NCBI RefSeq assembly: GCF_001513975.1
Contig: NZ_KQ947984.1
Location: forward strand, 558,001-622,000
Origin: Streptomyces curacoi
GTDB taxonomy: Bacteria > Actinomycetota > Actinomycetes > Streptomycetales > Streptomycetaceae
Length of the DNA: 64,000 bases
Reading direction: 5' to 3'
Positions 9,714 through 62,870 of this stretch are shown here, in pieces (position 1 is the stretch's first letter; every line of letters begins with the position of its first letter). The notes beneath the pieces were generated by a model. It worked only from the letters and a program-made list of their open reading frames with translations. It searched no databases and was not told the origin of the DNA. A program made the position numbers and the translations under genes.

Positions 9714-9794
9714 CGCGTCCCCGTCCCTTCCCGTCGGGGTCGCGCCCGGACACTGCCGTCGTCGGCGCTTCCGGGGCCACGTAGACTTCGTGGC

Positions 9795-10496
9795 ATGGCG
9801 AGGAAGGACACGGCAGCAGACGCTGCGAATCCCGGGCGACTGAAGCAGATCGCCCTGACCTACAAGATGACCCGCAGGGCCGACAAGAAGATCGGTCTTG
9901 TACTCGCGGCAGTAGGAATCGTCACCTTCGGTGTCTTCCTCGCGATCGGTTTCTTGATCGGTCACCCCATCTATCTCGGCATCCTGGGCCTCCTGCTCGC
10001 CTTCCTCGCGACGGCGATCGTGTTCGGGCGCCGGGCCGAGCGGGCCGCCTTCGGGCAGATGGAGGGCCAGCCGGGCGCCGCAGCGGCCGTGCTGGACAAC
10101 ATCGGCCGGGGCTGGACGACGACACCGGCGGTGGCGATGAACCGCAGCCAGGACGTGGTCCACCGGGCCGTCGGCAAGGCCGGCATCGTGCTGGTCGCCG
10201 AGGGCAACCCGAACCGGGTGAAGAGCCTGCTGGCGGCCGAGAAGAAGAAGATGAACCGCATCGTCGCGGACGTGCCGGTGCACGATCTGATCGTCGGCGT
10301 CGGCGAGGGCCAGGTCGAGCTGAAGAAGCTGCGGACCACCATGCTGAAGCTGCCGCGCGTGCTGACCGGTCCCCAGGTGACCGCCACCAACGACCGGCTG
10401 CGGGCCATGGGTGACCTGATGAGCAACATGCCGCTGCCGAAGGGCCCGATGCCCAAGGGCATGAAGCTGCCGAAGGGCGGGCCGAAGGCCCGCTGA
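9795..10496 (+). CDS. DUF4191 integral membrane protein
   Basis: The 233-residue protein has two adjacent transmembrane segments (about residues 35-80, IGLVLAAVGIVTFGVFLA and YLGILGLLLAFLATAIVFG). A soluble C-terminal half follows, ending in a Lys/Pro/Gly-rich tail. This is the DUF4191 architecture of actinobacteria, usually found near lipA and glnA. The biochemical function is unknown. The ATG at 9795 is close to the front of the hydrophobic part and the frame is strongly coding. A strong terminator follows at 10511-10547. Confidence 0.88.
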   Translation: MARKDTAADAANPGRLKQIALTYKMTRRADKKIGLVLAAVGIVTFGVFLAIGFLIGHPIYLGILGLLLAFLATAIVFGRRAERAAFGQMEGQPGAAAAVLDNIGRGWTTTPAVAMNRSQDVVHRAVGKAGIVLVAEGNPNRVKSLLAAEKKKMNRIVADVPVHDLIVGVGEGQVELKKLRTTMLKLPRVLTGPQVTATNDRLRAMGDLMSNMPLPKGPMPKGMKLPKGGPKAR

Positions 10497-10510
10497 CTCT
10501 CCTCGTACGA

Positions 10511-10547
10511 GAAGGGGGGCGCCCGGTTCACTCCGGGCGCCCCCTTC
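10511..10547. terminator. Strong hairpin terminator after the DUF4191 gene, shared with RDD gene
   Basis: GAAGGGGGGCGCCCGG (10511-10526) pairs with CCGGGCGCCCCCTTC (10533-10547) across a 6-base loop, a nearly perfect 15-16 bp GC stem. It lies between the stops of two convergent genes (10496 and 10602), so it can work in both directions. As usual in Streptomyces there is no long U tract. Confidence 0.8.
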
Positions 10548-10601
10548 GTCGTACGACCGTCAGAGGTCGTCGTGCGACCGCCGGCTGCCGTCGTACGACC
10601 G

Positions 10602-11069
10602 CTAGATGCGCACTTCCACGGTGCGGGCAAGCCGGTCGTGCAGGCCGCGGCCGTCGCGGTCCCAGATCAGGGCCGGGACGGCGAGGCACAGCAGGGCCGT
10701 GCGCAGCAGGGCGCGCAGCGGGTTGACCGTGCCGGTCTCCAGGGCCACCACGCGGAGGCCGAAGAGGCGCTTGCCCGGGGTGAAGCCGACCGTGCCGACG
10801 GTCAGGACGCTCATCACGAAGAAGAGGAGCAGGGCCCAGTTGCTGGTCGCCTGGCCGTAGCCGTCGGTGATGAGACCGTATGCGATCAAGAGGCAGACAC
10901 CCCAGTCGACGGCGAGTGCGCCGAGCCTCCGCCCCGGGCGGGCGATCGACCCCGGCCCCTCCTCCGGCAGGCCGAGCTGCCGGCCCCGGTATCCGAAGTC
11001 GACACCGGCTTCCTCGGCGGCCGCGCGGGGGCCCGAGAGCCAGGATCCGATTGCTTGCCTCTTGTCCAC
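10602..11069 (-). CDS. RDD family membrane protein
   Basis: The 155-residue protein has the RDD layout. An Arg precedes the first hydrophobic segment (RRLGALAVDWGVCLLIAYG), an Asp lies within it, a second hydrophobic segment follows (LLLFFVMSVLTVGTVG), and then the FTPGKRLFGLRVV loop and the WDRDGRGLHDRLART end. RDD proteins are small membrane proteins, some linked to ion exchange; the role here is unknown. GTG at 11069 is the start, with GGTGGG upstream. It is divergent from glnA, and the GlnR box lies between them, so nitrogen control could touch this gene too. Confidence 0.88.
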   Translation of the reverse strand: MDKRQAIGSWLSGPRAAAEEAGVDFGYRGRQLGLPEEGPGSIARPGRRLGALAVDWGVCLLIAYGLITDGYGQATSNWALLLFFVMSVLTVGTVGFTPGKRLFGLRVVALETGTVNPLRALLRTALLCLAVPALIWDRDGRGLHDRLARTVEVRI

Positions 11070-11132
11070 GAGCCCACCGTACTGTGCCCGTTTTGCGATG
11101 TGGACAGGTGGGGTGAGGTACGGGATGTCCGG

Positions 11133-11170
11133 TTAACGTGTGCGAAACAAATGGGTCACGCCCGAGAAAC
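11133..11170 (+). promoter_or_regulatory. GlnR box upstream of glnA
   Basis: TTAAC-N6-GAAAC-N6-GTCAC-N6-GAAAC runs from 11133 to 11170. This is the complete a-b-a-b arrangement of the actinobacterial GlnR consensus (gTnAc-n6-GaAAc, twice) with exact 11-base steps. It ends about 97 bp before the glnA ATG. GlnR, the OmpR-type global nitrogen regulator, activates glnA in Streptomyces under nitrogen limitation. The same spacing and sequence class recur before glnII. Confidence 0.88.
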
Positions 11171-11267
11171 CACCCGTCCCTAGGGTCGAGGTCAGCGTGT
11201 GCCACCGCACTGGCCGCACGAACGAACTACCACCCCGGCACGGACGGTCGGGAGTAGGAGGAGCTGG

Positions 11268-12677
11268 ATGTTCCAGAACGCCGACGAGGCCAAGAAGTTC
11301 ATCGCGGACGAGGACGTCAAGTTCGTCGACGTCCGCTTCTGCGACCTGCCGGGCGTCATGCAGCACTTCACGGTGCCCGTCGAGGCGTTCGACCCGGACG
11401 AGGAGCTCGCCTTCGACGGATCGTCGATCCGTGGTTTCCAGGCCATTCACGAGTCCGACATGGCGCTGCGCGCGGACCTGTCGACCGCCCGGGTCGACCC
11501 GTTCCGCCGTGACAAGACCCTCAACATCAACTTCTTCATCCACGACCCGATCACGGGCGAGCAGTACTCCCGTGACCCGCGCAACGTGGCCAAGAAGGCC
11601 GAGGCCTACCTCGCCTCCACCGGTATCGCGGACACCGCGTACTTCGGTCCGGAGGCCGAGTTCTACGTCTTCGACAGCGTGCGCTTCAAGACGTCCGAGA
11701 ACGAGTCCTTCTACCACATCGACTCCGAGGCGGGCGCCTGGAACACCGGTGCGCTGGAGGACAACCGCGGTTACAAGGTCCGCTACAAGGGCGGTTACTT
11801 CCCGACCCCGCCGGTCGACCACTTCGCCGACCTGCGTGCCGAGATCTCCCTGGAGCTGGGGCGGGCCGGTCTGCAGGTCGAGCGTCAGCACCACGAGGTG
11901 GGCACCGCCGGCCAGGCCGAGATCAACTACAAGTTCAACACGCTGCTCGCCGCCGCCGACGACCTTCAGCTGTTCAAGTACATCGTGAAGAACGTCGCCT
12001 GGCGCAACGGCAAGACGGCGACCTTCATGCCGAAGCCGATCTTCGGTGACAACGGCTCGGGCATGCACGTGCACCAGTCGCTGTGGTCGGGCGGCTCCCC
12101 GCTCTTCTACGACGAGGCCGGTTACGCGGGCCTGTCGGACACCGCCCGCTACTACATCGGCGGCATCCTCAAGCACGCCCCGTCGCTGCTGGCCTTCACC
12201 AACCCCACGGTGAACTCGTACCACCGTCTGGTGCCGGGCTTCGAGGCGCCGGTCAACCTGGTGTACTCGCAGCGCAACCGCTCCGCGGCCATGCGTATCC
12301 CGATCACGGGTTCGAACCCGAAGGCCAAGCGCGTCGAGTTCCGCGCGCCCGACTCCTCCGGCAACCCGTACCTGGCCTTCTCGGCCCTGCTGCTCGCGGG
12401 CCTGGACGGCATCAAGAACAAGATCGAGCCGGCCGAGCCGATCGACAAGGACCTGTACGAGCTCGCTCCCGAGGAGCACGCGGGTGTCCCGCAGGTCCCG
12501 ACCTCGCTCCCGGCCGTCCTCGACTCCCTTGAGGCCGACCACGAGTTCCTCCTCCAGGGCGACGTGTTCACGCCGGACCTGATCGAGACGTGGATCGACT
12601 ACAAGCGCACGAACGAGATCGCGCCGCTGCAGCTGCGTCCGCACCCGCACGAGTTCGAGCTCTACTTCGACGTGTGA
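11268..12677 (+). CDS. glnA: Glutamine synthetase type I (GlnA)
   Basis: GlnA makes glutamine from glutamate, ammonia and ATP in the cytoplasm as a dodecamer. The 469 residues carry the class I landmarks: the DGSSIRGF latch region (about 50-57), the metal-binding EAEFYVFD, the ATP-site [12 protein letters not shown] (256-267), and the adenylylation site with Tyr397 in KDLYEL. Tyr397 is the residue that GlnE (at 56323 in this window) modifies. The ATG at 11268 follows AGGAGG and gives the standard length. Regulation is visible: a full GlnR box lies about 100 bp upstream and a strong terminator follows at 12735. Confidence 0.98.
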
Positions 12678-60426: not shown

Positions 60427-60906
60427 TCAGGTACGCCCGCTCTGTGTGAAGGGGCACCCTTGCAACCGCCGGTGCCACCACCGCAGCCGCCGGTCGGCGA
60501 GCGGATCCGGCAGGGTACGGGCGCGGTACTCCGCGTCCAGCGCGGCGACGGTCCGCGCCAGCTCGGCACGGTCCCGCGGGGGCAGGTTCCGCAGGACGGT
60601 GCCGAGCACGTCGCGAGCGTGCCGGACGTCCCGGAGGGAACAGCCGCGGCAGCCGCAGTCGTCGCCGTACGGATAGCGCGGCTTACGCCCCGCGGGCCTC
60701 AGAAAAGCCTCGTATCTCCGCAGGGCATGGTCGGTGACGCCGGGGAAGACGAAGTAGTCGGCCGAGAGCGCCTCATGGCGGTGTACGGCGAGGCTGGTAC
60801 GGGCGGAGAGCCCGTGGATGCGGTCCGGGGCGGGCGTGTCCCACCAGCGCGCCCCCTGTCGAAGCCACTGCGCGGCGCGCAGCGAACCGGGCCGCCTACG
60901 CGGCAT
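60427..60906 (-). CDS. Hypothetical protein with a Cys-x-Cys-x-x-Cys motif (159 aa)
   Basis: This basic, mostly helical protein contains DDCGCRGCSLRDVRHARDVL (about 81-100), which may bind metal, and a helical C-terminal half (RDRAELARTVAALDAEYRAR, DRRLRWWHRRLQ). I do not recognise the family with certainty. Third-position GC is high and the start ATG at 60906 begins MPRRRPGS. Its stop is only three bases from the VOC gene stop. Confidence 0.75.
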   Translation of the reverse strand: MPRRRPGSLRAAQWLRQGARWWDTPAPDRIHGLSARTSLAVHRHEALSADYFVFPGVTDHALRRYEAFLRPAGRKPRYPYGDDCGCRGCSLRDVRHARDVLGTVLRNLPPRDRAELARTVAALDAEYRARTLPDPLADRRLRWWHRRLQGCPFTQSGRT

Positions 60907-61041
60907 CGGCCTTTCGTGATGGCGAGTTCATGAGGATCAGTATGCCGCCGTGCGCCCTGGGTGCTGGGTAGGCCGGGAGGCGAGTCGTTCAGGCATTCGA
61001 TTCTAAGGGCTGTGCCGTAAGTGTGGTTGCGGACAGCCACT

Positions 61042-61107
61042 GTGACTGAGCACTCCAATTGGCCCTTTCGCGCTTGAGTCGGCCCCGCTGAGCGTCGGAG
61101 TTGCCCC
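61042..61107 (-). repeat. Three 21-bp iterons, left arm of an inverted pair
   Basis: On the minus strand three units of exactly 21 bp (61087-61107, 61066-61086, 61045-61065) each begin GGGG(C)C-A/G-ACTC-like. The outermost continues as GGGCCAATTGGAGTGCTCAGTCAC. The matching right arm is at 62058-62123. The surrounding stretch from 60907 to the gene at 61370 holds no other gene; a strong GGAAGGAGG at about 61145 is not followed by a usable start. Confidence 0.75.
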
Positions 61108-61369
61108 GCAGGGCGACGGCCGTGAGCCTGACCGGGGATTTCACGGAAGGAGGTACGAGTCAGCGCTCGCAATGTAGGAGGTCACGGGCTCCCCACAGTG
61201 TGGTGCGCAATGTGCGTGCGTCCGAGTACGGTCCCGTACCGTCCACCATCGGCGCGTCATACGGCCTCTTACGGGTGACGGAAAAGCGTTTCGCCAGGGC
61301 ATCCATGTCTGGTGGCATCGCACGGAGGGGAGGGCGCGGACACAGGCACCTGCTGTGAGAGGACTGGCA

Positions 61370-61924
61370 GTGAGCGATCCGTGTGTGAGCAGATCCGAAT
61401 CGTCGTACCGGGACGTGCAGGAGGCGGCCTTCCGGCGGGTGTGCGACGCCATGGGCAGTCACGATCTGGATGCCTTGGTGTCCGTCTACACCGAGGACGT
61501 CCACTTTGTGGACAAGACGCTCCGGTGGGACCTGCACGGCCGTGACGAGCTCCGTGACCACTTCGGACTCTGGTTCGCCGCCACCTCCAGGCTGGGCATG
61601 TCCGCTCTGGACAGAGTCCATGCTGCGGGCCGGGCCGCCTTTCTGTGGCGCACCTTCGGAACCGTTCTCTCCGGCCAGCGGTTCGACGTCCCAGGAACAA
61701 GCCTGTTCACCTTCACCGCCGCCGGACAGATCAGTCACGAGACCGTGCAGTGGAACCTCGCAGACCTGCCTGACCAGGCCGCAAGGGACATGGGCCTGCG
61801 TCCCGCTGCCGCCTCCGAACTGTTCGTTGCGCCGGTGGCCAATGGACGGGGCACGGAGGCGGCGAGGCTGGTGGAGCGCCACCGGGCTCGACGAAAGGGC
61901 ATCCCGGAACACCATCAGGGGTAA
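61370..61924 (+). CDS. SnoaL/NTF2-like protein
   Basis: The 184-residue protein has an NTF2-like cone fold: EAAFRRVCDAMGSHDLDALV, YTEDVHFVDKTLRWDLHGRD, ELRDHFGLWFAATSRLG, TSLFTFTAAGQISHETVQWN. Members include SnoaL cyclases, dehydratases and stress-linked proteins; no specific reaction can be assigned. GTG 61370 is preferred over GTG 61355 because GAGAGGA lies just before it. It is the only gene inside the 1.1-kb segment bounded by inverted iterons. Confidence 0.82.
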   Translation: MSDPCVSRSESSYRDVQEAAFRRVCDAMGSHDLDALVSVYTEDVHFVDKTLRWDLHGRDELRDHFGLWFAATSRLGMSALDRVHAAGRAAFLWRTFGTVLSGQRFDVPGTSLFTFTAAGQISHETVQWNLADLPDQAARDMGLRPAAASELFVAPVANGRGTEAARLVERHRARRKGIPEHHQG

Positions 61925-62057
61925 GCCCGCCGGGCGCGGCCCTGCACGTGCGGGTAGTCGACGGTGATGCCGCCTCGCCGCGTCCCCGAACACTCGGCTC
62001 GGCATCCGAGGCCGGGCCATTGCCCTTCTCCCTGGCCAACTCGTCTGCTGACCCATT

Positions 62058-62123
62058 GGGCCAACCGCAGCACTCAACCGGGCCAACTCAGCCGCTCAGG
62101 GGCCAACTCAAGTGCTCGGTCAC
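62058..62123 (+). repeat. Three iterons, right arm of an inverted pair
   Basis: GGGCCAAC-type units start at 62058, 62080 and 62100, the last reading GGGCCAACTCAAGTGCTCGG followed by TCAC. This outer unit matches the outer left unit (61042-61065) in inverse orientation at 20 of 24 positions. The remaining bases from 61925 to 62136 carry no gene. Confidence 0.75.
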
Positions 62124-62136
62124 AGCCACGGCCTCA

Positions 62137-62409
62137 TCAGTTGCTCAGGTTCCTCCACAGATGCCGCTCCTCCAGGGTCCCGAACCGCACGTCGCCGCGT
62201 TCGAGGTCGACGAGGATGGGCCAGCAGTCCAACAGCTGCTCCCTCACGTCACGCGAAGCGAGGTACTGCACAGAGTTGTAAGGCACGATCAGGAGGCCGT
62301 TGTGCTCGCGGACTCGTTCCATGTCTATGGCAAGAGGAGGCTCGTCATCGCGCTGGCTGTCGGCGAGAAACGCCACTGCGAGCTGTAGAGCGTCGTCCTG
62401 CTTCATCAT
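62137..62409 (-). CDS. YrhB domain (immunity protein 35-like) protein
   Basis: The 90-residue protein has the YrhB/Imm35 pattern: MMKQDDALQLAVAFLADSQR, PPLAIDMERVREHNGLLIVP, YNSVQYLASRDVREQLLDCW and ILVDLERGDVRFGT. Such proteins are often immunity partners of polymorphic toxins, but no toxin gene is in sight here. GGAG five bases before ATG 62409 sets the start. The frame stays open to 62712, but that extension is antisense to a transposase remnant and is not real. Confidence 0.78.
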   Translation of the reverse strand: MMKQDDALQLAVAFLADSQRDDEPPLAIDMERVREHNGLLIVPYNSVQYLASRDVREQLLDCWPILVDLERGDVRFGTLEERHLWRNLSN

Positions 62410-62451
62410 TCGTCTCCAGTCCGTAGGCCAACCACCAGGTCGTCCTCGTAA

Positions 62452-62661
62452 GAGCTCTCCGGCGCGAAGGCCGCCGTCGGTAAGACGACAGTGATCGCGG
62501 ATGACGGCTACCGGGGCACCGGCCGTGTCATCCCGCACCGCCGCGAACGCGGCCAGGCCGAACTCCCGGCCCGGATCCGAGACTGCCGGCCAAAAGGCGA
62601 CAGCGCCCAACACGCCATGCTCGGATTCGCCCGCCTCCGCAACCTCGTCCTCAGCGGCTGA
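62452..62661 (+). pseudogene. IS5-like transposase remnant, 3' end with internal deletion
   Basis: The plus frame reads TTVIADDGYRGTGRVIPHRR, then ERGQAELPARIRDCRPKGDS, then AQHAMLGFARLRNLVLSG and a stop at 62659. The first and last parts match the C-terminal region of Streptomyces IS5-type DDE transposases (GYxGTG, then CRxKGDxxHHAMLGIARLHNL). The segment that normally links them, about 20-25 residues including the RARVEH helix with the final catalytic Glu, is missing. A stop at 62449 cuts it off upstream, so it is dead. Confidence 0.75.
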
Positions 62662-62870
62662 CCGAGAAGCGAGACGAGCGAGCAGACGACCAACAGGCAC
62701 GTCTCCGATCACTTACGGGACAGCACTTAGGAGCAGGCTGCCCGCGCCCCACAGTGATCCGGCTCGGACGGCCCAGAGACCACCCAGGGCCAGTGACGGG
62801 TGTTCGGGGCCGACATCTCGGCCGTCGGCCCCAACCGCCGAGTCAGCAGAAACGCTGCTCTGGCCTGCCC

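Follow-up and report, generated by a model that had tools for sequence, protein, structure and literature searches.

A probable non-autonomous cassette with Tn7-like ends around a SnoaL-type gene in Streptomyces curacoi

A stretch of 64,000 nucleotides from Streptomyces curacoi (contig NZ_KQ947984.1, positions 558,001 to 622,000, hereafter the window) contains a SnoaL/NTF2-like gene enclosed by clusters of ~21-bp repeats that face each other as mirror images. The question raised by this locus is what such an arrangement represents. The initial annotation, made from the letters of the window alone, proposed either a non-autonomous mobile cassette or its relic, or a pair of operators that loop DNA over the gene. 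Comparison with other genomes favours the mobile cassette, and with a probability of about 0.92 the segment is a non-autonomous single-gene member of a Tn7-like family of Streptomyces.

The element covers positions 61041-62124 (1,084 bp) and runs from TGTGACTGAG to CTCGGTCACA, so that the limits first assigned, 61042 and 62123, were one base short on each side. Its left boundary reads GCCAC followed by TGTGACTGAGCACTCCAATTGGCCC, and the right end, read inwards, begins with TGTGACCGAGCACTTGAGTTGGCCC, with a second copy of GCCAC lying beyond the element. The repeated unit has the consensus GAGCGNNNNAGTTGGCCC and starts at positions 8, 28 and 50 of the left end and at positions 8, 28, 50 and 75 of the right end; the three units originally counted on each side thus hold for the left, and the right has four. 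The inverted repeat formed by the two ends (arms 61040-61107 and 62058-62125) spans 68 nt with 74% complementarity. In a +1/-1 scan of positions 60501-62700 it scores 32, against a maximum of 30 and a mean of 17.7 in 200 dinucleotide-preserving shuffles, a statistic to be weighed in the knowledge that this scoring was picked after the stricter +1/-2 scan, tried first, had given 17 against a shuffle maximum of 20 and had failed to separate the repeat from the shuffles. Taken from this 2.2-kb region alone, the repeat is moderately striking in statistical terms, and it is therefore the comparative evidence that settles its reality. The coordinates of the features are collected in Table 1.

Table 1. 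Features of the element and its surroundings, in window coordinates.
Feature	Position	Strand	Evidence
Left target duplication copy, GCCAC	61036..61040	.	Relatives have GCCAC/GCCGC once in the uninterrupted site
Left transposon end, TGTGAC terminus and three direct ~21-bp units	61041..61114	+	Profile R1, 65.6 bits (end in training set)
Left-end units, putative TnsB-binding sites	61048-61065, 61068-61085, 61090-61107	+	
Cargo gene, SnoaL_2/NTF2-like protein	61370..61924	+	Pfam SnoaL_2, 55.8 bits, E 7.5e-15
Right-end units, outermost first, putative transposase sites	62100-62117, 62080-62097, 62058-62075, 62033-62050	-	
Right transposon end, TGTGAC terminus and four ~20-25-bp units	62033..62124	-	Profile R1, 70.2 bits (end in training set)
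Right target duplication copy, GCCAC	62125..62129	.	Exact match to left copy
Neighbouring Imm35/YrhB-like gene, outside the element	62137..62409	-	Pfam Imm35, E 5.8e-8

The presence of an NTF2-like gene between the ends is borne out by the Pfam match, and its open reading frame is the sole convincing gene of the element. The frame is intact, with GC contents of 0.70/0.51/0.79 at the three codon positions; translation likely starts at GTG 61370, which is preceded by GAGGA, with GTG 61355 as the alternative. No tns homologue was found inside the element. Neither a homologue of the protein nor a second copy of the cassette was detected in the other genomes of a set of 199 Streptomyces at E <= 1e-8; one distant relative is an ester cyclase on a Caballeronia plasmid, matches in the PDB are weak, and the structure model is poor (mean pLDDT 58). 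Judged by its sequence, the protein is a distant member of the NTF2-like/ketosteroid-isomerase-like group, and it would most simply be an accessory enzyme that plays no part in the transposition mechanism.

Looking for a target duplication outside the boundaries returned an exact one, the 5-bp GCCAC on both sides. When the two flanks are joined with a single GCCAC, they match other Streptomyces across the junction at 81-86% identity. The alignment to one empty site (L196) is ungapped over 236 bp, three others (L197, L199, L200) have small gaps at most, and a further three (L195, L198, L201) have small local deletions near the junction. These relatives carry the flanks together and lack the repeats, contrary to what a locus conserved as ordinary regulatory DNA would present. 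By this alignment evidence, the segment is an insertion beside the Imm35/YrhB-like gene, whose stop codon is 12 bp away from the right end, in a region that is continuous in the empty-site relatives. The surroundings hold an outer inverted pair of their own, CTAAGGGCTGTGCCGTAAGTG at 61003-61023 and CTAAGTGCTGTCCCGTAAGTG at 62710-62730. Besides the cassette and the Imm35 gene, this pair encloses a remnant (~62490-62660, read by eye) similar to the C-terminal portion of an IS5-type transposase; a short stretch of the remnant is matched in many Streptomyces. A similar outer pair occurs in L195 at 1501 and 2707. The outer pair and the Imm35 gene possibly constitute an older IS-based module.

The search for further copies of the ends was rewarded with many in Streptomyces. 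The whole element gave matches in 50 of 393 Streptomyces genomes, the window's own counted, many of them to the ends only, and several of these end matches proved to be short elements with inverted ends and other genes inside. A sequence-only profile of the ends, R1, was built from 25 ends; since both window ends were among them, their scores are not independent, and they rank among the better matches of the family. R1 matches at E <= 0.001 were obtained in 128 of 247 Streptomyces genomes (species), and among 395 genomes of the class, from 137 genera, Streptomyces is the only genus with matches at E <= 1e-6. Ends of this type are also found on plasmids of Streptomyces and on a few of Kitasatospora and Embleya. 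The window's genome contains a single pair of them, that of the element described here.

Inward-facing pairs of such ends at the fetched loci (given here as L numbers) are frequently flanked by exact 5-bp duplications, with 17 of 84 pairs in a first pass (0 of 252 shifted controls) and 27 of 75 after more loci had been added (0 of 300); among the 27, a few pairs combine ends of a single array (L224, L226, L086), so that the independent insertions are somewhat fewer. The elements flanked in this way range from 634 bp to 14.1 kb, and the majority carry one to few unrelated genes and neither a tns homologue nor a transposase. The cargo of the short elements includes, besides the SnoaL_2 gene of the window, RibD_C (L021, L228), isochorismatase (L013), DinB_2 (L012), NmrA (L018), an esterase (L080) and an M20 peptidase (L079). 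L190 combines an LMW phosphatase/arsenate-reductase-type protein, a MIP channel, a glyoxalase and a GNAT protein; its cassette at 9780-12639 (2.86 kb, TSD ACTAT) is transposase-less, and its genes resemble an arsenic detoxification set. The RibD_C cassette occurs at four loci in four genomes, namely at an XRE site (L021), at a dnaE site (L228), at another grouped site (L011/L084) and in L089. Its copies are 87-93% identical inside the element, with L021 missing one internal stretch, and their flanks are unrelated.

The same ends also bound complete elements. L150, flanked by AGTGC, encodes in this order a TnsA-like nuclease, a 693-aa rve transposase, a TniB-type ATPase and TniQ, and also holds a nested ISL3 element. 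The rve match of this transposase is below Pfam's cut-off; aligned to TnsB of ShCAST, its catalytic D, D and E fall in register. L174 (8.3 kb, TSD ATCAG) has a TnsA-TnsB open frame and TnsC, and L221, on the Kitasatospora purpeofusca plasmid NZ_CP108563 (TSD GTGGC), has annotated TnsA, transposase, TniB and TniQ between its ends. L150, L174 and L221 are Tn7-like transposons. The similarities to TnsA and TnsB in L174 (5529-8240) share a single open frame of 903 aa, perhaps because the two genes are naturally fused or because an in-frame deletion has joined them. In L173, L175 and L184, tns genes, some of them broken, directly adjoin an end, with similarity to tnsA-tnsB-tnsC-tniQ in L175, and L191 too has tns genes beside an end. 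The 14.1-kb element of L132 (565-14685, TSD CCTCC) bears tns genes as well, and its large open reading frames look by eye like restriction-modification genes. Few R1 ends lie near the TniQ loci of the genus, probably since many of these loci represent different Tn7-like branches, whose TnsB is about 30% identical.

The ends are of more than one architecture. The tnsA-proximal end of L150 and L174 consists of direct units (split in L150 by the ISL3 insertion), and the distal end of one unit followed by an inverted one. Read by eye, this asymmetry is kept in the cassettes L018, L021, L056, L063 and L190; direct-unit arrays are found at both ends of the window element, L012, L013, L076 and L081. 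Such symmetric cassettes could have arisen by gene capture between two inverted copies of one end.

Comparison of the outer flanks of 139 distinct ends shows that elements of different species fall into groups that share a site. One group, with 12 ends, lies at an XRE-type regulator gene, ~31-36 bp past the stop codon in the cases measured, and includes the complete or near-complete elements L184 and L221. Another group, with 7 ends including L173 and L175, is at a fixed distance from a conserved GGCATGACTATACG...TTTTATGCAA upstream of argC. A third is ~121 bp upstream of the plasmid gene dnaE, with L222 (which has all four tns genes), L228 and related sites, and further groups, one of them with L150, surround a TTCGAA-type motif. 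Insertion sites are therefore common to cassettes and complete elements, and the recurrence may reflect target choice of the TniQ/TnsD type. The Imm35 site of the window is absent from the recurrent targets of the family and was not met again at the same distance.

Additional observations concern these motifs. The insertions of L009, L023, L027, L054, L163 and L171 keep a constant distance from a sequence that resembles an ArgR box and lies upstream of argC. Fixed distances from TCGAACA/TTCGAA-type motifs are seen in L222, L228, L087, L053 and L080, in L011, L088, L091 and L150, and in L079, L160, L075 and L215, and in two plasmids the sites with this motif lie upstream of dnaE. The target selector possibly recognises these motifs, which may be operators of the SOS type. 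Neighbouring elements in tandem arrays are often exactly 5 bp apart (L224 3996-6385, L225 4533/4539, L161 7265/7271, L170 4721/4727). The two elements of L224 have the 5-mer CGAAG at all three junctions, as would follow if the second element had inserted at the target position of the first.

The reading of the repeats as paired operators of ordinary regulatory DNA draws on their helical phasing of ~21 bp on both sides of the gene, but is very improbable, as the flanks of other species are continuous where the segment is absent and unrelated genes elsewhere lie between the same repeats, with 5-bp duplications. Operators are thus refuted as the origin of the repeats, which may have a secondary regulatory role. 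An element of the IS21 family (IstA/IstB) is just as improbable. IS21 ends have multiple repeats and a few base pairs are duplicated at insertion; multiple terminal repeats and TG...CA termini give the window element a general resemblance to them. The four IstB-like loci of the window's genome, though, lack clusters of the units, and the complete elements with these ends and duplications carry TnsA, TnsB, TnsC and TniQ. An IS21-family origin was the first hypothesis, and it was dropped on the evidence of the IstB loci and of the TnsA, transposase, TniB and TniQ genes of L150.

A more serious contender, still unlikely, is decay: the segment would be the relic of a Tn7-like transposon that underwent internal deletion, retains the SnoaL gene as leftover cargo and can no longer be mobilised. 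Such decay would fit a genome with one pair of ends only and without recognisable helper genes: a search for TniQ gave no match there, nor did one with the TnsB of L150, which was run without a positive control. The window copy is accordingly an orphan. Against decay stand the good scores of the ends, the exact duplication, the intact frame and the recurrence of similar short cassettes across many species, including one cassette present at several sites. The non-autonomous cassette put forward by the initial annotation is thus upheld by the duplication, the empty sites, further elements with the same ends and transposase-bearing elements among these. Since no second copy was found, the mobility of the SnoaL cassette itself rests on its duplication, its empty sites and its family resemblance.

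We are confident that the window element is a transposon with Tn7-like ends, and the ends and sites shared with complete elements suggest that it was mobilised in trans by Tn7-like machinery. The proposed model is that a TnsB-type DDE transposase would bind the arrays of ~21-bp sites at each end, that a complete element would provide TnsA and TnsB, which, along with TnsC and a target selector of the TniQ/TnsD type, would excise the cassette or copy it, and that its insertion elsewhere would leave the 5-bp duplication.

Like Tn7-like transposons (PMC8649781, PMC10293859), the window element has arrays of putative transposase sites, a 5-bp duplication and TGT..ACA-type termini; its complete relatives carry TnsA, a TnsB-like DDE transposase, TnsC/TniB and TniQ, and its family has recurrent fixed insertion sites. 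Unlike a complete transposon of this kind, in which TnsB and TnsC lie inside, it is ~1 kb long, with one gene and no tns genes, and its end sequence, end architecture and 5-bp duplication are those of a non-autonomous Tn7-like derivative. In PMC8649781, 6,549 Tn7-like transposons were delineated, among them an Actinobacteria-dominated clade that is experimentally uncharacterised according to that paper; as tnsB was required in every element, transposase-less ones would have been missed. PMC10293859 surveys the target selectors of Tn7-like transposons, and the word 'non-autonomous' is absent from the text of both papers. The open-licence literature searched yielded no account of Tn7-like cassettes without a transposase in Streptomyces, and the group is large and apparently undescribed. 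Mobile insertion cassettes (MICs) and MITE-like elements such as the qnrD MIC (PMC3913671) likewise hold a passenger gene between transposon ends, have no transposase and are presumably moved by that of a relative. They have simple IS inverted repeats in place of multi-site Tn7-like arrays, whereas the cassettes related to the window element use fixed sites common to complete elements and form arrays. The window element shares with MICs the passenger gene, the missing transposase and the ends of a known element, but MICs are defined on IS ends, hence the comparison is one of analogy. Integron gene cassettes are also single-gene mobile units able to accumulate in arrays at a fixed site; they insert without target duplication, whereas the window element has inverted transposon ends and a 5-bp duplication, and no attC-type recombination is implied.

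It is somewhat more likely than not that the family as a whole forms a genus-wide cassette economy, in which TnsABC-TniQ transposons mobilise single-gene elements with Tn7-like ends in trans. The elements would be inserted at a small number of fixed sites, namely the 3' side of an XRE-type gene, a sequence resembling an ArgR box upstream of argC, and a TCGAACA-type motif found upstream of a plasmid dnaE and of other genes, and repeated insertion there would build integron-like arrays by DDE transposition. If the cassettes are moved in trans to fixed sites, individual genes for metabolism, resistance and accessory functions would have an unrecognised route of transfer in Streptomyces, one that is naturally recorded in the cassette arrays. 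Integration tools for Streptomyces could also be derived from the ends, from the complete helper elements and from the recurrent sites.
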